A stretch of DNA of 37,376 nt, taken from IMG/VR virus record IMGVR_UViG_3300040806_001315, positions 1 through 37,376 of that record. One strand, 5' to 3'. The notes under the pieces were generated by a model. That model was given only the letters and a program-made list of their open reading frames with translations, did no database searches and had not been told where the DNA came from. Shown piece after piece: positions 2,009 through 35,080 of the stretch; position 1 is the stretch's first letter, and each line of letters opens with the position of its first letter. Made by a program: the position numbers and the translations under genes. The DNA is from a virus.

Positions 2009-2095
2009 GCGAGGACACCAGTTAGGCGTTTCCTTTGTGGAAACTTCAGTTAGGCGTTTCCTTTGTGGAAATACCAGTTAGGGAGTCCTCTTCGC
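2009..2095 (+). ncRNA. Tandem 28-nt repeat RNA element with nested hairpins
   Basis: Directly after the stop codon at 2004, CAGTTAGG occurs three times at exactly 28-nt intervals (2019, 2047, 2075). The two full units each contain a hairpin: GTTTCC-TTTGT-GGAAAC at 2028-2044, and the same with a terminal G-T pair at 2056-2072. The whole is closed by GAGGAC (2011-2016) pairing with GTCCTC (2085-2090), extended by GC (2009-2010) with GC (2094-2095). The folded form is a closing stem enclosing two identical hairpins separated by CAGTTAGG linkers. No ORF of note lies inside. It could be a 3'-UTR structure, a processed small RNA or a protein-binding site. Function is unknown. Confidence 0.55.
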
Positions 2096-2099
2096 TTAA

Positions 2100-2132
2100 A
2101 ATACCTCTGTTAATTCAGGGGTATTTTTTTTT
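2100..2132 (+). terminator. Rho-independent terminator
   Basis: AATACCTCTG (2100-2109) pairs with CAGGGGTATT (2116-2125), with one G-T pair and a 6-nt loop, followed by a T run to 2132. It closes the tail gene/repeat RNA transcript. The same T run abuts the next promoter box. Confidence 0.85.
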
Positions 2133-7928: not shown

Positions 7929-9032
7929 ATGGAATTCAAAGTAAAAGAAGTAACAGTAGGTGAAGAAAAATCAGTTCAAGAGGTAGAGCAAGAGCTTTTA
8001 GATAAGCATGAAGAAAAGATTAATAATGAAGAGCCAAAAGCTGAAGAGCCAAAAGCTGAAGAGCCAAAAGCTGAAGAGCCAAAAGCTGAAGAGCCAAAAG
8101 CTGAATTAAACGAGAAAGACGTTCTTTCATATATTGGAAAAAGATATAATAAAGAAATTAATTCATTTGATGAGTTAATGAGTCAGCGAGAAACTCATGA
8201 GGAATTACCTGAAGATGTCGCTGCTTACTTTAAATATAAAAAAGACACAGGTAGAGGTATTAAAGATTTTGTAGAGTTACAAAAAGACTTTGATGAATTC
8301 AATCCTGATTCTTTACTTAAAGAATATTTACGTGCTACAGAAGATGGTCTTGATGAAGAGGATATTGAAACCTTAATGGAGGATTACTCTTTTGATGAAG
8401 ATTTAGATGATGAGGGTGACATAAAGAAAATTAAGTTAAAGAAGAAAAAAGCTATTGCTAAGGCAAAAGATTACTTTAAAGAAATGCAAGAGAAGTATAA
8501 GCAACCACTTGAGTCAAGGGGAACGCAAGCTTCAAATGTATCTGAAGAAGAAATGGAAGGCTACAGGCAATACATTGCAAATGCGAAGTCTTATGAAGAA
8601 GAGACTGCTAGAAAGAAAGAGATTTATAACTCTAAGACGTTAGAAGTATTTACACCTGAGTTCAAAGGTTTTGAGTTCAATATAGGTGAAGAAACCATAA
8701 CGTATTCTCCAGGTAGTTTAGAAGATTTAAAAAAGAGTGCATTGAATCCAGGTAGTTGGGCAACCAAGTATTTAGATGACAATGGTCTTTTAAAAGATTC
8801 TAAAGGTTTTCATAGGAGTGTATCAATTGCACAGAATCCTGAAAAGTTTGCTAAGTTCTTTTATGAACAAGGTAAGGCTAAAGCCACTGAGGATGTAATG
8901 CGTAAGACAAAAAATATTAATATGTCGGAACGTAAAACACCTGAAGTGACAAGCAAAGGAGGAACACAATTTAAGTCTTTAAACACAGACAGTGGGAGAG
9001 GACTTAAAATTAGAAGTATAAAAAGAAAATAA
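7929..9032 (+). CDS. Probable capsid scaffolding protein
   Basis: 367 aa located between portal and major capsid gene, the usual scaffold position. The protein is very rich in Glu, Lys and Asp and is predicted mostly helical and disordered. Residues 34-58 are five perfect EEPKA repeats encoded by five identical 15-bp units. The middle has a dense acidic region (EDGLDEEDIETLMEDYSFDEDL) next to a basic cluster (KKIKLKKKK), which suits electrostatic scaffold-shell contacts. The C-terminus is basic (GRGLKIRSIKRK), as in scaffolds that dock on the inner capsid surface. Inference: directs shell assembly and then leaves. No protease motif is visible in it or nearby, so release by exit rather than proteolysis is more likely, unless a protease is elsewhere. 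Confidence 0.65.
   Translation: MEFKVKEVTVGEEKSVQEVEQELLDKHEEKINNEEPKAEEPKAEEPKAEEPKAEEPKAELNEKDVLSYIGKRYNKEINSFDELMSQRETHEELPEDVAAYFKYKKDTGRGIKDFVELQKDFDEFNPDSLLKEYLRATEDGLDEEDIETLMEDYSFDEDLDDEGDIKKIKLKKKKAIAKAKDYFKEMQEKYKQPLESRGTQASNVSEEEMEGYRQYIANAKSYEEETARKKEIYNSKTLEVFTPEFKGFEFNIGEETITYSPGSLEDLKKSALNPGSWATKYLDDNGLLKDSKGFHRSVSIAQNPEKFAKFFYEQGKAKATEDVMRKTKNINMSERKTPEVTSKGGTQFKSLNTDSGRGLKIRSIKRK
8028..8102 (+). repeat. Five perfect 15-bp tandem repeats in scaffold gene
   Basis: GAAGAGCCAAAAGCT is repeated five times without a mismatch and encodes EEPKA x5. Since the unit is five codons, gain or loss of copies keeps the frame. Identity at synonymous positions points to recent slippage. Confidence 0.95.
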
Positions 9033-25174: not shown

Positions 25175-28100
25175 ATGACTGATAGACGATTTAAAGCTCC
25201 AGATGGACAAGAATATGAGGAATCATTTTTAATTGAAAGATATGGTCAGGAACAGTTTGATGCTTTTGTAGCTGACCAAACTTTTTTAGAGATACCAGAT
25301 GGCGAACAAACAATCTTAGATGAAGATGAGTTTACTGCACCTGATGGTAAAAAATATTCTCAGTCATTTTTAGTAGAACGATATGGTCAAGAACAGTTTG
25401 ACTCATTTGTTGAAGATGGTACGTTTAAAAAAAAAGATGTTACCGATTCAGACTCTTCGGTTATCATTTCAGAATTTCAAGGCTTTGATTCTATCCCTAA
25501 ACCAAAAGCAAAAACTATTGATCAGTTAGGAATGTACCCTTCCAAAGAAGAGGTAGATGCTGCATTTCAAATTGAAGTAGATAAAATAAAAGCTTTAGCC
25601 GAAAGACAAGCTCAGAGAGAAGCCGAAAGACAAGCTCGATTTGATATAACTGATGAAGAAGCTTTAGCTGCTTTACAAAAGAAAGAAAAGCAAGAGCAAG
25701 AAAAAATTCTTGAGGCACAGAAAAAAGACTTAGAAGAGTTAACCAGTTCAAAAGAATTTATAGAAGATGTATCTACAGTAACTTCTGAATTAGCATACAA
25801 AGAACAAGATGAGGTTGCATCTATACTAAATAAAAAGTTTGGTAAGTATGGTTTTATTGCTATTCCAGTAGGTCAATTTGGAAGAGATGCAGTGCACTTA
25901 AAAACTATAGATGGTAAAAATAGAATTGTATTAGAGGTTGATGCATTTAGTTTTGATAATACAGCAGAGCCTGTAGCTAAATCAATAAAAGAATTTATAA
26001 ATACCAATGCAAGGTCTATTAAAGATTCAACTCAAGTACAAACCGAGGAAGATTTAAAAGTAGAAGATGAAATAAATAAAGCCTTTAGAGCAAAACAAAT
26101 GAGACCTGTTGCTATGGTTAATTCTGATGGGTCAGAGTCTACTGTTAAGTTCATGTCATATGAGGAAGATGGTAAGTATTATGTTGCTCCAACTTTATTT
26201 CCTAAAGACCCAGACAATCCAACTTCAAAACCAAGTGATTGGTTTGAGTTAAACATGAGTGAGGCTATCATGCTTGCTAAACAAAGAGGTGAGGTATTTG
26301 AGTTTGATACTGAAGAAGCTGCTGAGGATTTTGCTGAAGGTAGTTGGAAGGATGTCAGCACTGCTGATTCTGAAGCTGATAAGTTTTATGCCGAAAGAGG
26401 TTTAGATTATTTTGCTAGTAGAAAAGCATATGATGATTACCAAGATTTAAATGAAGAGATAGATTTTTTAGAAGATGCTATATCAGGTAGAGAATTTGAA
26501 AAAAGATACGAAGAGTCATTAACTCCTGAAGAGAAAGCAGAGTTCGGTGAGTTATATGTAAATGGAAAAATAAGATCAGATGCTCAACAATATGTAGATG
26601 AACTAAAGAAAAGAAGAGATAAGCTTTCAGGGATTGTTATGTTGGATGAAAACCAAGTAAGAGCGAGAGAAGACTTTGATGAATATTTAATAGACAGAGT
26701 TCAGAAGACTGCTGCTGTGGCTGCAGAATCAAACCGAGACGCTAAAATTGCAGAGGCTAATGTATATACTAGTATAAGAAATAACCTTGGTATAAGTCCT
26801 GATGAATTACAGAATTATGTTCCAAAAACTGAACGTGAGGTAATACTTAAAAACAAATACATAGAAGACTTAGTTACTGTTGATGCTGCAAAATCACAAG
26901 CTGCTTTAAAATATGAAGTAGCAAAAACCTTTTACAACAAGAAGGTAAATAAATCTCTCCAAGGAAAATATGTAGACAACCTTGAGGCTTTTAATACTGC
27001 AGTTAGTAATGGATATAAGAGAGGTCAAGCAATGGAAGTGATACTTGCTATGTCTTTAGGTATAGAAGACTTAGGTCTTTTAAATGCCACAAACAGTAAA
27101 AAGAAAAATGCAGAATTAATATCTAAATACTTAGGTTCTCAGTCACCAAATTTAGGTCGTGTAAGCAGTAGATATGCACAAGCTAGAACGGCTAAAGAAG
27201 TAGCAGATGTTATCTTAGATAATCCACTTGAGTGGTCACTTACCTTGATGGGAGAATCATTAAGTCAAATGCTTCCTTATGGAACAAAATTAGTAGCAAC
27301 TACTGCAGGAACTGGAACTGCAACAGGTGCAGTTGTGGGTAGTGTTGTACCTGGAGCAGGTACTTTTGCAGGAGGATTAACAGGTCTTTCTTATGGTGTA
27401 AGAACAGGTATGGCTGCTACATCGTTTGCAATGGAATACACTAACTCTGTGTTAGAAGGCTTAGAAAAAAATGGATATAATTATCTTGACCCTAAGCAAG
27501 TAGAGAAAGGGTTAGAGGACCAAAGGGTATGGGATTATGCTAATGATGTTGGTGCAAAAAGAGGTAGTATAATTGGTCTAGTAGACTTTGCTTCCTCTGG
27601 TTTGGCAGGTAGAGTATTTAAACCTTCATCAAAACTTATGTCAAAAGGTACACGAATGGGATTGTTTGCTGCAGAACGTGCTATATATGACCCTGCTGCT
27701 GAAGGTTTTGGTGAATACTTAGCACAGGTAGGTTCTGGTCAAGAGGTAGATTTTAAAGAGATACTTGCTGAGATGGGTGGAGCTATAGGAAATCAAGTTT
27801 CAACTGCAGGAATCAATGTCATGATGGATGCAAGGAGAAATACTAACTTAAAGATAGCAGACTTTTTAGCAAATGATTTAGCAGGAATGGTAAATGATCG
27901 TGCAAGCGATGTTCGTATTTCAAACTGGGCAAACAACATGTTAAGCCTTGGCAAAATAAATGAAGACCAGGCACAAAGAATACAAGAAAATGTTGGAATT
28001 AGAAGACAGATAAATGAGTTACTTAATGTAAGTAAAGCACCATTAATACCATCAACTCAAACTAAAAAAATCAGAACAAGGTTGGCTGAGTTAATAGATG

Positions 28101-31100
28101 CAAGAAATCAACTTACCCAATCAACCAATACAAAAGAAATATTTAGAAAAAAAATTAGCGATATCAATGCAGAGATTGCAGAGATTGCAGAAACCAACAA
28201 GATACCAGAAGAACAATCAATAGACGCTGAAGGTAATGTTGTAGGTACAGGTGTAAATTTAGATAGCATATTAGGAAAGACTAGCAGAAAAAAAGCTGCT
28301 AAATATGTTTGGGGTGGAAAAATGTTAACAAAAGAGGAGTTTTTAAAAAAATTAGATAACCTAACTAGCAAACAATTTAGAAGAATGGGTAGCACGACAG
28401 TAGTCGGTGACCCTGAAATTGCTGCTAAACTAAAAGCAAAAATAAATGCCATTCAAGAGTCAAGCACAAAGAAGGTGGATGTACCTCAACAAGCCAGAGA
28501 TGGCGAAACGTTGGGAGAGAGAGACACCCAAGTCGACAGTGTTACCGAAGAGGTTACGCAAGTCGAAGATGAGACGCAGACGCAACAAGCGATAACAATA
28601 GGACCAACACCTGTTGAAGTAAACGAAACTATAGCAGAAACATTTACTCCTGAAGCAGTAGTAGAAAATGTTATTGTTGAAGAAACTCAAGAGCCTACAG
28701 GTGTACAGATTGTTACTAAGCCAGACAATACATTTGCAGTTATTGAAAATGACGTTGTTGTTGAAGATAATATTGAGACTAAAGAAGCAGCATTGAATGT
28801 AGCAAATAAAATTGCTCCTATAGCTGAGGTTGAAGCTGAGGTTGAAGCTGAGGTTGAATTAGCTCCTTCTTTTTTAAAACCATTAAAAAAACATAAGACT
28901 GCATATGAAAATAATACTCTAGAAGAAGCAGATAGACGAGGTATTATTGCGTATGCATTAGATAAAAAATCAAAAGGTAAAAGATTAACTGCGTTTGAGA
29001 ATACTATTTTAGATACATCTAACCAGGAGACTGTAAGTGATATACAGATATTGATTGAAGATATTGATACTCGTCAAAGACAACGTCAGGATTTTGATCA
29101 AGAGGTTGCAGACCTAGAAGCATTTATTAACGAAGCTAATCCACAGTTTCAACTATCCACAAAAGTTACTCCAGAGAATAAGAAGAAAGAACTTGAGGCT
29201 GAAGCTTTGAGACTTATGGAAAACTTTGAAGAGGAGGAGATGGCTTCTGTTGCATTCTCTATAAAGAAATTAAAACAAACTAAAGAAGCGTTGCCTGAAA
29301 ATTACTGGACTGTATCTGAAGTAGAAGACGAGACTGGTCTTGTACCTATAAATGTTGAAGGTGGTTCAGGTTTTGTAGATGCCGAAGGAGACATCAAGGG
29401 TGTGTATAAATTTACAGAGGCAGTAGAGAAAAAAGTAAAAGGAGTTGCTGATAGGATATTAAAAAAAGCAGTAGACTTTGGAGGTATCAAGCTAGATAAC
29501 TTTGATAATTACCTTACAGATATCTATAAGCGTAATGGTTTTAGAGTAGTTTCTAGAACTCCATTCAATGAGAAGTATGCACCAGAAGGTTGGAATAAAG
29601 AAACTGATGGAACACCTGATGTAATTGCAATGGTGTATGATCCAGAAAATGTAATGGATATTGAAGAGAAAACTTTTTCTGACCCAGAGACAGGTTATGA
29701 CCAAATGATAGAGTACAGAGATTCTGTAATTCAAGACGCTAAGAATAAAGCAATGCCTGCTATAGTTCCTATTACTGTAAAAGAGGGAACTAAGTTTGCT
29801 GACAAAATAAAACGTATGGGTCTGTTTGAATTGATTGGTAAAAAAATAAACTTAGTCATGGCTGACCAATTGGTAGCAGATGGTAAGTTTATGGGAGGTC
29901 CAATGTTTCCTTTTATGGATAAGTTGTTTGGTAAGGTTGCATGGGCATCTATTACAGAGAAGGCTGCGAAAGCAATTATTGAGGGTGCTACTAAATCAGA
30001 CTATACAGTTGTGTTTAATATGAGTCCTACTGCAATTATTGGTAATGTAGCTTTCAATGCCAACTTGCTAGAGAATCTTAATGAGCAACAACAAAAAGAT
30101 TTATTAGTAGAGATTCAAAAATATGCTGAAGCACAGAAGAAAAACTTATTTAAAAAGGAAGCTGCTGAAGCTACAACTTTAAAAGGATTCTTTGATGCTA
30201 TAAATGAATCTTCTTCCACTAAAAGAAAAGAATTTTTACAAGCCATAATACCTACTACTAAAAAGAAATCCAGTACAGACATAGGAATATTTTTAGAGAA
30301 CATAGGTTTAACTATGGAGAAATTGACATCTGATGTGGCTCAAGACTTTGCTGCTGATTTACCTACAGGTGCATTAACTACAGTTCTTGAGGTTACAGAT
30401 AAGAATGGAAACAAGATTACTAAAGAAACTGCAAGTGAGGCACTTATAACTCCTGAAGAGCAAAAGAAAGAAGGTTTACCTGAACATCCTAACTATCCAT
30501 ATTTTGTTAGAGGTAAAGCAATTGGTCTCCTCAAAGAGACTACTCCTTTTTGGAATATGGTAGATAATGTTAGAGATATTATAGAGAAAAAAATCACAGG
30601 TGTTATTAAGAGAAAAACAACTAAGGATGGTAAGACTGGTAAAAAGATAGCAACTAAAGTAAAGTTTACTGCCAAGCAAGCTTTCAATGATGCTTACTAT
30701 CAAGCTCAGTTAAACGCAGATAAACTATACCAAATTACTAATCCTAGAATATCAAAGTATTCTGAGTTTATAAACCTACTTAAAAGATCATTCCCTAATG
30801 TTGAGGTGATTGATAGTCAAGAAGGTTTTGATAATCTATTAGCTAATCCAGAGGTTGTTGCATTAACAACAAAACAACAAAGAGACCAAGGGAAAGTTTA
30901 TGGTGCAGTATTTCAAGGTAAGTTATATTTAAATCCTAGTGCTGCTAATCTTAATACACCTATACATGAGTTTGGTCACATATGGAATAACATTGCTAAA
31001 CAACAAAGACCAGAGCTATATAATAAAGGCTTAGAGCTTATTGAGTCTGACAACACATATGTAAAGCAGATTGAGAATAGTCTTGAGTATCAGAGGGTGA

Positions 31101-34100
31101 TAAAGCAAATGCAAAAAGAAGGAAGAACAGAACAAGAGGTTCGTGAGTTTATCCTGGAAGAAGCATTAGCGACTGCTATCGGAGACAAGGGTGAGTCATT
31201 TGCTAATGCAGCCGTAAAAAAAGACTTTAAGAACTGGTTAAAGAAACTGTATCGTTTCGTAAAATCAATGACTGGGTTATCTCAGTATACTGATGAGCAA
31301 TTACAAGACATAACACTTGATGAATTTTTACAAGGAGTTGTAGTTGATTTATTATCAGGGGAGCAGGTATTTAAAGATGCTCAAGTTAAGGAGTTCCCTG
31401 ATCAGCTTCAGTTGATGACAGGTATAACTGTTGATGAAGCATCTATGACTAACATAATATCTGCAGGTAGAGAGCAAGGATTCTCTGATGCAGTTATAAA
31501 GGAGGTATTGAAAGGAAGAGGTTTTAAAGCTACTGATATAAATAAAGCAATGGTTGTAAACCTAGGCAATACATTGTTTGAAGATGTAGTTGTGCCATCT
31601 GAGTTTGGTAATATGGAAGGTGGTATGGAGCAGGGTCAAGAGTTATTTGATAAGATTAGAAAAAAACTAAAAGCTTACGCACAACCAAGAACTACCAGAA
31701 GAACACGTAGAGAAACGGCAGAGGAAAAAGCTGAGAGAGCAACAATGCTTAGGTCTGCAAACCCTACGTTATTTGCAATGACAGACGAGGAAATACTTAG
31801 CAGATATCCAAGGATAGGTGTAACTGAAACTATAACTACACCTCCTAAAACCAAATCTGAAATTAGAGCAAAGGCTTTAGAATTATTAAAAGCTGAAGCT
31901 TCGTTCCAGGCACAACCTGAAACAACTCAAAGACAACTTATAATAGCCTTAGACAAGACTATAGGAACTCGTGCTAACAAAGTAGTGTCTCAGGAGATAA
32001 ATGCTCTTAAACAAAGAATAAAGGACTATCAGAAAGGGATTAAAGATATACAAGAAGCTAAACGTATTCTTAGAAACTATATACGAAAAGCTTTACCTAA
32101 ATCTAATCTTTACACCAAGGGTAGTATCACTAAGATTGTTTCACGTATTGCAAAAGCTACTCCTGCAACTATTCTTAGTGATGTAGAGTATGTAAACAAA
32201 CAGGTAGATGCTCAACGAGAAATAATGAAAAGGTCTGTTATTAAGAAAATGGCAAAGCTTGTTTCTGAAAAAAGTAAAAAAAGAATAACAGAGGCAAACA
32301 AAGCCAAGAGTAAGGGTATAGCAGCAGAGGCTCAAGCATTTTTTCAAGAAGCAAATAATATATTTAAACTTGTTTTGAAAAATGACGTTGAAGGTATGTT
32401 GAAAGTTTTAGAAGAACTTAGTATAAATGAAGATGTAATTACTCAAGCTATAATAAAAGAAATTAATGGTAAAAAGTTGACTGTTGATGAGCAAAGACTT
32501 ATCAATCTATCTTATGCTTTTGATAATTTCTCTGACCTTGGGAACATGACCTTAGAGGAAACTACTGAATTATATAATGCATTCAAAGATTTAAATGCAG
32601 AAGGGATAAGAAGGTTTAAAAGTAGAAGAGCAGCTCGTGCAGAGCAGATTGCTAATATGAACAAACAGGCTGAGGTTGAAATAAAAGAAGGTTTTCCAGA
32701 AGTAATAGATCAAGATGGTAACCCAAAAAACACAAACCAACTTGCACAAGACCGAGTTAGAATAGAAAAACTATATGCTGAAAAGAAATACTTGAAGTGG
32801 GCAAAAGAATACGTAAACCATTATAGGTTTGGTTCATTTGCTGAACTGATAAGAGGATTTAAAAATAGCCTCAAACATTTAGGAACACTAACTAATAACC
32901 TTGACAAAAAAGGTAGTTTTTTTACAGATAATGTATACCGAAGATTAAACCTAGCTGATGAAGCCAACATGAAAGGTTATTTCAGAACAATGAGTAAACT
33001 AGATGATATAGCTAACAGTGTAGGTGGTATAACAAAAGGGTTTAGAGAGATTCGTAATAAAATCTATGAGTCTGGAACAATGGATATAAAAACAAGAAGT
33101 ACACTAAGTGATGGAACAATGGGTTCATTCAGTACTACCACGCTTAGTCGAGATAAACTTTTAAGAATTTATTCCTTGTATAAAAATGATGTTCAAAGAG
33201 ATAAACTTAAAAGACAAGGCTTTGATAGGAAGACTATGGATGACATTGAAACTTTTTTAGGTAAGGATGTAACTGAGTTTGCAGATAAAATGGTTTACTT
33301 CCTAAGTAATGAGTATTATAATGAAACCAATGACGTATATCGTGCTGCTAATGATGTAAATCTTAATTACGTACAAAATTATTTTCCAACTCAAACACTT
33401 TCTTCTAGTAAAAAAATGACATCGCTACTTGCTGATGGAGATTTTAATGCAATATTTAATGCAGAAAGTGCACCTGCACTTAAACGTAGAGTAGATGCTA
33501 AAGGAGATGTTAATTTAGAAGTAGATTTTTCTGCTACATTAATTGACCATGTTAAAGCAATGGAAAGATACAAGGCATATGCTATTCCAACAAAAATGCT
33601 TCAAGGTGTTTTTAGTGACCCATATGTTAAGTCACTTTTAGAATCTTTAAAAGTGCAGAAAGTCATGAGACAAGCAGTTAACTACGCTATAAACCCTGAC
33701 TCATATGTACATAACTCTGCACCAATGAAGTTTATTACATCTCTTCAAAGTAAATATACTTCTTTTGCTTTAGCTTTAAAGTTTATGCAGATACCTAAAC
33801 AAATGTCTTCGTTTGTGAATGCATTTGAAAACTATAGTTTTAGGAAAGAAGGACAAACACCTGGTCTTGATTTAGTAATGTTTATGGTTGATGCCTCTAT
33901 GATGTATGCAAATTTATTAGCAGAAATCGCAGTGATTGGAGCAGAGAAAGTATCAGGTAAACATATTGGTTTAAAAAGCAGACCATTAACAGAAGCTATG
34001 GAGATGTCTGGTTCATTAAGAAAAAGGATCGAACTTGGTGTGAAAGGAGACTTGGTTGGACTAGAGGCAGGTCAACCAACTTTCAAAAACATCGAAAGTA

Positions 34101-35080
34101 ACCAGGCATTATGGGCAAAGCTTGGTAGAGGTGGTCGTAGACTTGCTGCGTCTCCAACTGTTATTGGAGATATTGCAGGTGTAATGGGTTACATGATTAA
34201 CTATAGACGTAATATTAAAAACGGAATGAGCAAAGCCAAGGCTTTGGAAGAGTTTAATGATTATAATGCCACTCAGCAATCAAGAAGAGCTACTGAAAAA
34301 ATTCCTTTACAAATGAATGCAAATGCAATCACTAGGAGTTTACTAATGTTTGGTAGTACATTGTTTTTGCAGATGAATAAGGTAATGTCGTCTAGTACAA
34401 ACATAATGAGGGGAATTAAAGATGTTGGTAATGCAGTAATAGAAGGAGACATGAAAAAAGCAAAGGAAGGAGCAAAGAATATTAAAATAAAAGATATTCG
34501 TGGACTCTATTTAAATCTTGCCGTTGCTAATGTTATGTTTACTGCTATGGCTAATATCTTTAAAATAACTAGTGATGACCCAGAAGATAGAGAAGCAGCA
34601 TACCAAAGAATGAAAGATGCTATGTTTGGATTAAACTTAATATATGCAATTCCTTTTATTGGTGCGGCAGTTGAGCAACAAATTATAGACTACAGAGGTG
34701 AAAGAAGAAAAGTAAGTGAAGGAGTTAATCCATTAAACTCAGTAGTTAATAGAATAAGCAATGAAGTGAAGTATGATGATTCATCTTTAATATATGCCAC
34801 TTCTAAAAACTTAGCTGAAATAGGACTAGGTGTTCAGTTTGACCCAATTATAGGATTAGCTGAAACTTTTACAGGAGGGTTTGATGAGGAAACAATGTAT
34901 GATATGCTAGGAGTTAGTTACTCATACAGACCAGGTACTGGCAATAAGAAAAAGAAAAGTTCTTCTAATAAGAGTAACTCAGGTGGGATTGAGATGACTA
35001 TGGATGGTGAATCATTAAGTGGTAAACGTGGTAAACGTGGTAAAAGTAGTGGAGGAGGAATAGAAATAGAAATGGATTAA
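25175..35080 (+). CDS. Giant polyvalent ejection protein with zinc metallopeptidase domain
   Basis: 3301 aa, over a quarter of the window. Seen in order: two copies of a 35-residue motif (4-38, 51-84); a charged coiled coil (about 115-200); a domain with GKYYVAPTLFP, FEFDTEEAAEDFAEGSWKD (309-392), as in other phage polyvalent proteins; a Gly/Ala hydrophobic stretch (about 690-755); an EVEAE repeat (1217-1228); a segment with LDNFDNYLTDIYKRNGFRVV and GTPDVIAMVYD (about 1425-1510); GGPMFPFMDK (about 1574); and HEFGH (1931-1935) with LEEALA (1994-1999), fitting a gluzincin-type zinc site with E1995/E1996 as third ligand. Long helices follow. Three hydrophobic helices lie near 3050, 3110 and 3150, before a basic Gly/Ser tail. 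Inference: injected with DNA, cleaving host proteins or peptidoglycan-linked targets and helping form the channel. No RNA polymerase motif was found. Confidence 0.7.
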   Translation: MTDRRFKAPDGQEYEESFLIERYGQEQFDAFVADQTFLEIPDGEQTILDEDEFTAPDGKKYSQSFLVERYGQEQFDSFVEDGTFKKKDVTDSDSSVIISEFQGFDSIPKPKAKTIDQLGMYPSKEEVDAAFQIEVDKIKALAERQAQREAERQARFDITDEEALAALQKKEKQEQEKILEAQKKDLEELTSSKEFIEDVSTVTSELAYKEQDEVASILNKKFGKYGFIAIPVGQFGRDAVHLKTIDGKNRIVLEVDAFSFDNTAEPVAKSIKEFINTNARSIKDSTQVQTEEDLKVEDEINKAFRAKQMRPVAMVNSDGSESTVKFMSYEEDGKYYVAPTLFPKDPDNPTSKPSDWFELNMSEAIMLAKQRGEVFEFDTEEAAEDFAEGSWKDVSTADSEADKFYAERGLDYFASRKAYDDYQDLNEEIDFLEDAISGREFEKRYEESLTPEEKAEFGELYVNGKIRSDAQQYVDELKKRRDKLSGIVMLDENQVRAREDFDEYLIDRVQKTAAVAAESNRDAKIAEANVYTSIRNNLGISPDELQNYVPKTEREVILKNKYIEDLVTVDAAKSQAALKYEVAKTFYNKKVNKSLQGKYVDNLEAFNTAVSNGYKRGQAMEVILAMSLGIEDLGLLNATNSKKKNAELISKYLGSQSPNLGRVSSRYAQARTAKEVADVILDNPLEWSLTLMGESLSQMLPYGTKLVATTAGTGTATGAVVGSVVPGAGTFAGGLTGLSYGVRTGMAATSFAMEYTNSVLEGLEKNGYNYLDPKQVEKGLEDQRVWDYANDVGAKRGSIIGLVDFASSGLAGRVFKPSSKLMSKGTRMGLFAAERAIYDPAAEGFGEYLAQVGSGQEVDFKEILAEMGGAIGNQVSTAGINVMMDARRNTNLKIADFLANDLAGMVNDRASDVRISNWANNMLSLGKINEDQAQRIQENVGIRRQINELLNVSKAPLIPSTQTKKIRTRLAELIDARNQLTQSTNTKEIFRKKISDINAEIAEIAETNKIPEEQSIDAEGNVVGTGVNLDSILGKTSRKKAAKYVWGGKMLTKEEFLKKLDNLTSKQFRRMGSTTVVGDPEIAAKLKAKINAIQESSTKKVDVPQQARDGETLGERDTQVDSVTEEVTQVEDETQTQQAITIGPTPVEVNETIAETFTPEAVVENVIVEETQEPTGVQIVTKPDNTFAVIENDVVVEDNIETKEAALNVANKIAPIAEVEAEVEAEVELAPSFLKPLKKHKTAYENNTLEEADRRGIIAYALDKKSKGKRLTAFENTILDTSNQETVSDIQILIEDIDTRQRQRQDFDQEVADLEAFINEANPQFQLSTKVTPENKKKELEAEALRLMENFEEEEMASVAFSIKKLKQTKEALPENYWTVSEVEDETGLVPINVEGGSGFVDAEGDIKGVYKFTEAVEKKVKGVADRILKKAVDFGGIKLDNFDNYLTDIYKRNGFRVVSRTPFNEKYAPEGWNKETDGTPDVIAMVYDPENVMDIEEKTFSDPETGYDQMIEYRDSVIQDAKNKAMPAIVPITVKEGTKFADKIKRMGLFELIGKKINLVMADQLVADGKFMGGPMFPFMDKLFGKVAWASITEKAAKAIIEGATKSDYTVVFNMSPTAIIGNVAFNANLLENLNEQQQKDLLVEIQKYAEAQKKNLFKKEAAEATTLKGFFDAINESSSTKRKEFLQAIIPTTKKKSSTDIGIFLENIGLTMEKLTSDVAQDFAADLPTGALTTVLEVTDKNGNKITKETASEALITPEEQKKEGLPEHPNYPYFVRGKAIGLLKETTPFWNMVDNVRDIIEKKITGVIKRKTTKDGKTGKKIATKVKFTAKQAFNDAYYQAQLNADKLYQITNPRISKYSEFINLLKRSFPNVEVIDSQEGFDNLLANPEVVALTTKQQRDQGKVYGAVFQGKLYLNPSAANLNTPIHEFGHIWNNIAKQQRPELYNKGLELIESDNTYVKQIENSLEYQRVIKQMQKEGRTEQEVREFILEEALATAIGDKGESFANAAVKKDFKNWLKKLYRFVKSMTGLSQYTDEQLQDITLDEFLQGVVVDLLSGEQVFKDAQVKEFPDQLQLMTGITVDEASMTNIISAGREQGFSDAVIKEVLKGRGFKATDINKAMVVNLGNTLFEDVVVPSEFGNMEGGMEQGQELFDKIRKKLKAYAQPRTTRRTRRETAEEKAERATMLRSANPTLFAMTDEEILSRYPRIGVTETITTPPKTKSEIRAKALELLKAEASFQAQPETTQRQLIIALDKTIGTRANKVVSQEINALKQRIKDYQKGIKDIQEAKRILRNYIRKALPKSNLYTKGSITKIVSRIAKATPATILSDVEYVNKQVDAQREIMKRSVIKKMAKLVSEKSKKRITEANKAKSKGIAAEAQAFFQEANNIFKLVLKNDVEGMLKVLEELSINEDVITQAIIKEINGKKLTVDEQRLINLSYAFDNFSDLGNMTLEETTELYNAFKDLNAEGIRRFKSRRAARAEQIANMNKQAEVEIKEGFPEVIDQDGNPKNTNQLAQDRVRIEKLYAEKKYLKWAKEYVNHYRFGSFAELIRGFKNSLKHLGTLTNNLDKKGSFFTDNVYRRLNLADEANMKGYFRTMSKLDDIANSVGGITKGFREIRNKIYESGTMDIKTRSTLSDGTMGSFSTTTLSRDKLLRIYSLYKNDVQRDKLKRQGFDRKTMDDIETFLGKDVTEFADKMVYFLSNEYYNETNDVYRAANDVNLNYVQNYFPTQTLSSSKKMTSLLADGDFNAIFNAESAPALKRRVDAKGDVNLEVDFSATLIDHVKAMERYKAYAIPTKMLQGVFSDPYVKSLLESLKVQKVMRQAVNYAINPDSYVHNSAPMKFITSLQSKYTSFALALKFMQIPKQMSSFVNAFENYSFRKEGQTPGLDLVMFMVDASMMYANLLAEIAVIGAEKVSGKHIGLKSRPLTEAMEMSGSLRKRIELGVKGDLVGLEAGQPTFKNIESNQALWAKLGRGGRRLAASPTVIGDIAGVMGYMINYRRNIKNGMSKAKALEEFNDYNATQQSRRATEKIPLQMNANAITRSLLMFGSTLFLQMNKVMSSSTNIMRGIKDVGNAVIEGDMKKAKEGAKNIKIKDIRGLYLNLAVANVMFTAMANIFKITSDDPEDREAAYQRMKDAMFGLNLIYAIPFIGAAVEQQIIDYRGERRKVSEGVNPLNSVVNRISNEVKYDDSSLIYATSKNLAEIGLGVQFDPIIGLAETFTGGFDEETMYDMLGVSYSYRPGTGNKKKKSSSNKSNSGGIEMTMDGESLSGKRGKRGKSSGGGIEIEMD
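25184..25426 (+). repeat. Duplicated 35-aa N-terminal motif of giant protein
   Basis: Residues 4-38 and 51-84 align with a 47-residue offset. They share F-x-APDG-x2-Y-x2-SFL-(I/V)-ERYGQEQFD-(A/S)-FV-x-D-x-TF. DNA copies differ at several synonymous sites, so the sequence is held by selection rather than recent copying. Confidence 0.85.
28823..28858 (+). repeat. Three perfect 12-bp tandem repeats
   Basis: GCTGAGGTTGAA is repeated three times in frame, encoding AEVE x3, in an acidic low-complexity linker of the giant protein. Copy number can change without frameshift. Confidence 0.9.
30524..30551 (+). other. Terminator-like sequence inside the giant gene
   Basis: GGTCTC-CTCAAA-GAGAC followed by TACTCCTTTTT closely matches the capsid terminator at 10533-10558, with one base changed in the stem and two bases inserted before TCC. 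It lies in coding sequence (encoding about GLLKETTPF). The stem is weaker (about 5 bp), so full termination is unlikely while ribosomes follow. Confidence 0.45.

Follow-up and report, generated by a model that had tools for sequence, protein, structure and literature searches.

Between a tail gene and its terminator, a phage genome from IMG/VR carries an element that, on comparative sequence evidence, is a true structured RNA: a pseudo-threefold three-way junction that accompanies one particular C-terminal domain of the tail protein. Neither the Rfam database nor the literature searched describes a phage RNA linked in this way to a single tail-protein domain. As for its role, the explanation that we tentatively favor is a cis-acting 3' untranslated region (UTR) RNA specific to the tail protein, that is, a binding site for this protein or its assembly factor.

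Genomic setting and parts of the element

The source DNA, here called the window, is the 37,376-base record of a virus in IMG/VR. Its terminase and portal genes have relatives in Flavobacterium phage elemo and Cellulophaga phage phi38:1, and the nearest public record is that of an uncultured podovirus (Manatee Spring). The element, about 88 to 90 nt long, occupies positions 2008 to 2095 of the + strand, between the stop of the tail gene and an intrinsic terminator, and gene and element form one transcription unit bracketed by promoter and terminator. The putative promoter element, TTATATTTGTTA, has two exact copies in the window and six matches with at most one mismatch (1.4 expected); it would act as a promoter judging by the known TAnnTTTG consensus. 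The features are as follows.

1090 to 1101, + strand: putative promoter element TTATATTTGTTA, Bacteroidetes-type, exact match 5' of the tail gene
1117 to 2004, + strand: gene for a putative tail appendage or receptor-binding protein of 295 aa (open reading frame, IMG/VR relatives and homologue alignment)
2009 to 2019, + strand: 5' strand of the outer arm (GCGAGGACACC), pairing with 2081 to 2095 (97.9 to 100% of cells paired in 24 relatives)
2020 to 2024, + strand: junction linker 1, AGTTA (consensus ARTTA, class A alignment)
2025 to 2047, + strand: arm 1 hairpin, GG-C-GTTTCC-TTTGT-GGAAAC-T-TC (95.8% of cells paired, double changes in 7 of 8 pairs)
2048 to 2052, + strand: junction linker 2, AGTTA (class A alignment)
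2053 to 2075, + strand: arm 2 hairpin, GG-C-GTTTCC-TTTGT-GGAAAT-A-CC (96.3% of cells paired, double changes in 7 of 8 pairs)
2076 to 2080, + strand: junction linker 3, AGTTA (class A alignment)
2081 to 2095, + strand: 3' strand of the outer arm with a TTCGC tail, pairing with 2009 to 2019
2098 to 2132, + strand: intrinsic terminator distinct from the element, a 12-pair stem followed by a T run, kept in relatives
2135 to 2146, + strand: putative promoter element TTATATTTGTTA of the following gene (2165 to 2395), exact match

An earlier note on this DNA had described three boxes 28 nt apart, and the spacing is indeed exact: CAGTTAGG stands at 2019, 2047, and 2075, with a sole additional copy in the window at 25523. 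When the entire window was dinucleotide-shuffled 100 times, only 2 shuffles contained an 8-mer (with more than two letters) in three equally spaced copies. The note's further observations hold as well: boxes 1 and 2 each precede a copy of one hairpin (GTTTCC-TTTGT-GGAAA), the strands of an outer stem (GAGGAC/GTCCTC) enclose the structure, and the terminator is separate and comes after the element, which eliminates the element itself as the intrinsic terminator. Its range of 2009 to 2132 stands as far as about 2095, the remainder being terminator, and its box, though present in three copies, is better defined by the conserved unit C-ARTTA-G: ARTTA stays unpaired and links two arms at the junction, and the C and G on either side of it belong to the pairs that close the arms. 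From box 3 the sequence runs into a third arm, namely the outer stem, whose TTCG tail is similar to the loops of arms 1 and 2. The folding energy of 2008 to 2095 is moderately unusual (z of -2.5); the strong evidence for the element comes from sequence comparison and not from folding energy.

A conserved three-way junction with covarying arms

Scans of IMG/VR guided by protein (two, with the tail gene and with the downstream GroES-like gene), by DNA patterns, and by a profile supplied many related loci. In these an element of this type, though with other stems, again lies between the tail stop and the conserved terminator, and 24 distinct elements, here termed class A, were aligned almost gap-free over 90 columns. 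This alignment replaces the double hairpin of the earlier note with a pseudo-threefold three-way junction. It has three near-equivalent arms, the outer stem being the third, and each consists of about 3 bp at the junction, a single bulged base in the 5' strand, and about 6 bp beyond it. Two arms are capped by pentaloops, and the outer stem is open where its loop would be. The linkers between the arms are 5 nt long, ARTTA or rarely AACTA, with all three identical in 19 of the 24 members.

Standard pairs fill 96.9% of the pair cells in class A, 18 of the 26 pairs have double changes, and the covariation score is 0.513 versus 0.129 in shuffles, with shuffled or slid versions nowhere near; RNAalifold, unaided, predicts the three-way junction from the alignment. 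The earlier note had made its dedicated RNA, apart from the terminator, depend on conservation of spacing and pairing in relatives. Both are clearly conserved, with strong covariation that RNAalifold corroborates, and the dedicated RNA is upheld. Other folds explain the alignment less well than the junction, with 93.2% of cells paired for a rod formed by pairing of repeats 1 and 2, 80.3% for short local hairpins, and 78.7% for three separate hairpins. Rod and junction have equal pair counts in 14 of the 24 members, and the junction is better in all 10 others. Since the energy model ranks other folds, such as an extended rod, above the junction in every member, its formation may depend on magnesium, on tertiary contacts, or on a partner.

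An excess of G-U pairs over A-C mismatches is expected under selection on the + strand RNA; neither a DNA site nor the opposite strand should show it. Paired positions in class A include 35 G-U and 2 A-C, which, together with the proportion of standard pairs and the double changes, argues that + strand RNA is under selection.

The same architecture recurs 3' of more distant tail genes in two further classes, which have nearly no primary sequence in common with class A. Class B (L102, L103, L105, and L110) has TTAGTGTAA boxes, and class C (L145, L147, L150, and L496) has TGGTT[TCA]G boxes at a spacing of exactly 28 nt. Consensus folding of class B alone and of class C alone yields the same three-helix junction, each with its own compensating changes, and a covariance model of class A, built without class B, detects class B at 28 to 29 bits (28.7 bits, E of 7e-5).

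These comparisons bear on the possibility that the element is a functionless by-product of repeat mutation, in which tandem palindromic repeats of 28 to 29 nt are homogenized by template switching. The arms inside one element are much alike and paired changes can arise through template switching, but the outer stem has double changes too (columns 8 and 81: AU 9, UA 9, and CG 5) despite strands about 70 nt apart, the junction beats the rod 10 to 0 where the arms differ enough, the shape is kept in three unrelated sequence classes, and the pairs of class A show a G-U bias. After the covariation and pairing tests, this explanation is largely refuted and we regard it as highly improbable.

Coupling to the tail C-terminal domain

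We found the element in all 31 distinct regions 3' of genes with this C-terminal domain (23 of class A, 4 of B, and 4 of C), 30 being assigned by script and L145/L490 assigned to class C by eye. At the same locus, no element was found after other tail C-terminal domains, including those joined to the same N terminus (L082, L090, L100, and L097), nor in L143, where a class C N terminus is combined with another C-terminal domain. As this site also accommodates tail genes that lack it, the element appears tied to one protein domain. The covariance model found at most one copy per related record searched.

Element distances follow those of the C-terminal part of the tail protein (Mantel r of 0.81, partial 0.79) and hardly track those of the downstream genes (partial 0.30). 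Between the window and L059, the downstream genes are 0.8% different with none of 78 fourfold sites changed, whereas the elements are 42% different. These patterns indicate that gene and element move jointly as a cassette. As expected of an autoregulatory protein-binding RNA of a phage structural gene, the structure lies within the tail mRNA and is co-inherited with the tail domain (31 of 31, and the distance correlation). Because the element adjoins the gene and swaps with it as a cassette, the coupling could also be plain linkage, which is a real alternative for the coupling and not for the structure.

The earlier note had also proposed a packaging or recombination site, and a DNA-level site for packaging, recombination, or cassette exchange between tail and packaging genes would fit the position of the element at the edge of an exchanged cassette, where the downstream genes can be near identical while the element differs by 42%. 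However, the 35 G-U pairs versus 2 A-C mismatches indicate selection on + strand RNA, the element tracks the tail domain and not the packaging genes, related phages with the same packaging genes lack it, and its sequence is too variable for homology-based crossover. On present evidence a DNA site is disfavored, indeed largely refuted, and very unlikely.

A further observation at this same locus concerns L082, L090, and L100, in which a different C-terminal domain is followed by a different short conserved hairpin (CTCAGTAGGTGACTTACCTAC), on the 5' side of the terminator that precedes the orf76 homologue. Other tail modules may therefore have 3' UTR elements of their own.

The tail protein of 295 aa, whose C-terminal domain is the one always trailed by the element, has no match in PHROG, Pfam, or PDB, and its gene has none in the public cultured-phage collection. 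Its homologues have several highly variable segments between almost invariant ones; among close relatives, the variable segments and the RNA element differ and the adjoining coding sequence is nearly identical. Predicted structures of low confidence (mean pLDDT of 57 and 63) gave no significant PDB fold match with either model and no significant BFVD fold match with the first, and no known RNA-binding fold was found in these models.

Possible functions

The preferred explanation, held tentatively, is that the RNA is bound by the protein encoded upstream or by a dedicated assembly factor. The tail protein or such a factor would bind the 3' UTR junction of the single-gene tail mRNA and thereby adjust the translation or stability of that one mRNA; alternatively, the bound RNA might keep nascent chains together for fiber assembly. 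Tail fibers are usually homotrimers, which makes the threefold form suggestive, since the RNA could offer three equivalent contacts to a putatively trimeric fiber. In its most specific form, which we consider possible but somewhat doubtful, the threefold RNA would be the operator or assembly scaffold of a trimeric receptor-binding protein and would co-diversify with it at receptor-binding domain swaps. The symmetric design predicts three equivalent binding sites. Should the coupling prove functional, an RNA partner would have to travel along with host-range proteins, which would bear on swaps of receptor-binding modules and on the regulation or assembly of tail fibers.

The element could instead be a general stabilizer of the 3' end, a compact junction that blocks exo- or endonucleases and, without any specific partner, lets an abundant late mRNA persist for longer. 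Its position between stop codon and terminator and its compact fold, with sequence free to vary and shape kept, are what such a block would show. However, other tail genes at the locus lack the element, which ties it to one protein domain, and the identical linkers in 19 of 24 members exceed what a generic block needs; we consider a stabilizer unlikely. We judge it quite unlikely that the element is a small RNA or decoy, cut from the 3' UTR and working in trans, either against a target of host or phage or by sequestering an RNA-binding protein. Three identical linkers and similar loops do resemble repeated binding sites, in a self-contained fold with its own terminator after it. Yet an RNA working in trans would not be expected to stay strictly linked to a single tail domain, linkers that differ among classes A, B, and C fit a constant host target poorly, and no promoter of its own was seen for the element.

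Comparison with known systems

Some of the RNAs known as GOLLD and ROOL are phage-borne. GOLLD and ROOL are large, ornate bacterial and phage RNAs that form symmetric homo-oligomers (PMC12286853). The element resembles them as a structured, symmetric noncoding RNA but differs in being about 88 to 90 nt long, against hundreds of nucleotides, and in being single copy within the 3' UTR of a tail gene. Another comparison is with phi29 pRNA, a small phage RNA with a three-way junction that oligomerizes by complementary loops and binds the packaging motor. In contrast, the hairpin loops of the element are alike (TTTGT and TTTGT in the window) and noncomplementary, and related phages whose packaging genes are homologous showed no element in the vicinity of the terminase.

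The coat-protein operator of the MS2 type is one hairpin at a start codon. By analogy, the working principle proposed here would be the same, an RNA structure in the mRNA of its own binder, although the element is a three-armed junction located 3' of the stop codon. To our knowledge, operators recognized by phage structural proteins are placed close to the ribosome-binding site and not in the 3' UTR, which speaks against the preferred explanation.

Diversity-generating retroelements require a structured site 3' of their target gene, and the element, a structure directly 3' of a tail gene with several very variable segments and constant ones between, could be part of a system that mutates variable tail loops. 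However, reverse transcriptase (PF00078) was absent from 10 related records, two of them 61 to 63 kb long, in searches whose controls were detected; no template repeat of the 3' part of the tail gene was found in the window; the variable segments are scattered over the whole gene; and selection acts on the RNA. A retroelement is refuted within the records searched, and its probability is close to negligible.

Searches for counterparts and rejected readings

That no element of this form has been described, as the earlier note had surmised, agrees with searches of Rfam and of literature covering few subscription journals; in that literature, too, we found no account of a phage RNA that belongs to one tail-protein domain. 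Rfam 15 had no match in the window at the gathering threshold, the best hit below it being suhB with 18.3 bits against a cutoff of 41, and none at E of at most 0.1 in five loci holding members of class A, B, or C. A BLAST search of the element against phage records returned chance hits only.

Several other readings were set aside. In the window a frame of about 25 codons begins with an ATG at 2007, but among relatives its length differs or the ATG is missing, which speaks against a short peptide, and stop-codon readthrough fails since the reading frame is not conserved. A CRISPR array or repeat mimic is excluded, the units between boxes being near identical and mutually pairing and not unrelated spacers. 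Origin from a host genome found no support among the three-box matches listed from genome contigs and ranked by hairpin energy, which were microsatellites or other simple repeats and one coincidence from Clostridia. The latter, in a bacterial genome assigned to Clostridia by its genes (L431, 2874 to 2937), carries CAATTAG three times at a spacing of 28 nt, together with identical hairpins, and is thus similar in design. It lies in an unrelated context, after a cell wall hydrolase gene and before a terminator-like hairpin, and scores at chance level with the model (14.7 bits, E of 0.54).

Among unrelated viral contigs, seven (L156, L172, L173, L183, L187, L206, and L231) carry arrays of repeats of about 30 nt of the form CAACAGTTAGACTTAGG. 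A perfect tandem array of 26 nt, CAGTTAGGTGTGCGTCGCTCGGCTCA, occurs in L002 and L028 (IMGVR_UViG_3300043449_001455). In the window itself, a gene for a GroES-like (Cpn10-type) protein (2395 to 2955) lies immediately 5' of the terminase genes, and perfect 15-nt tandem repeats (8012 to 8105) lie within an open reading frame (7929 to 9032) beside the portal gene. A single open reading frame of 3301 aa, with no function assigned, spans 25175 to 35080.
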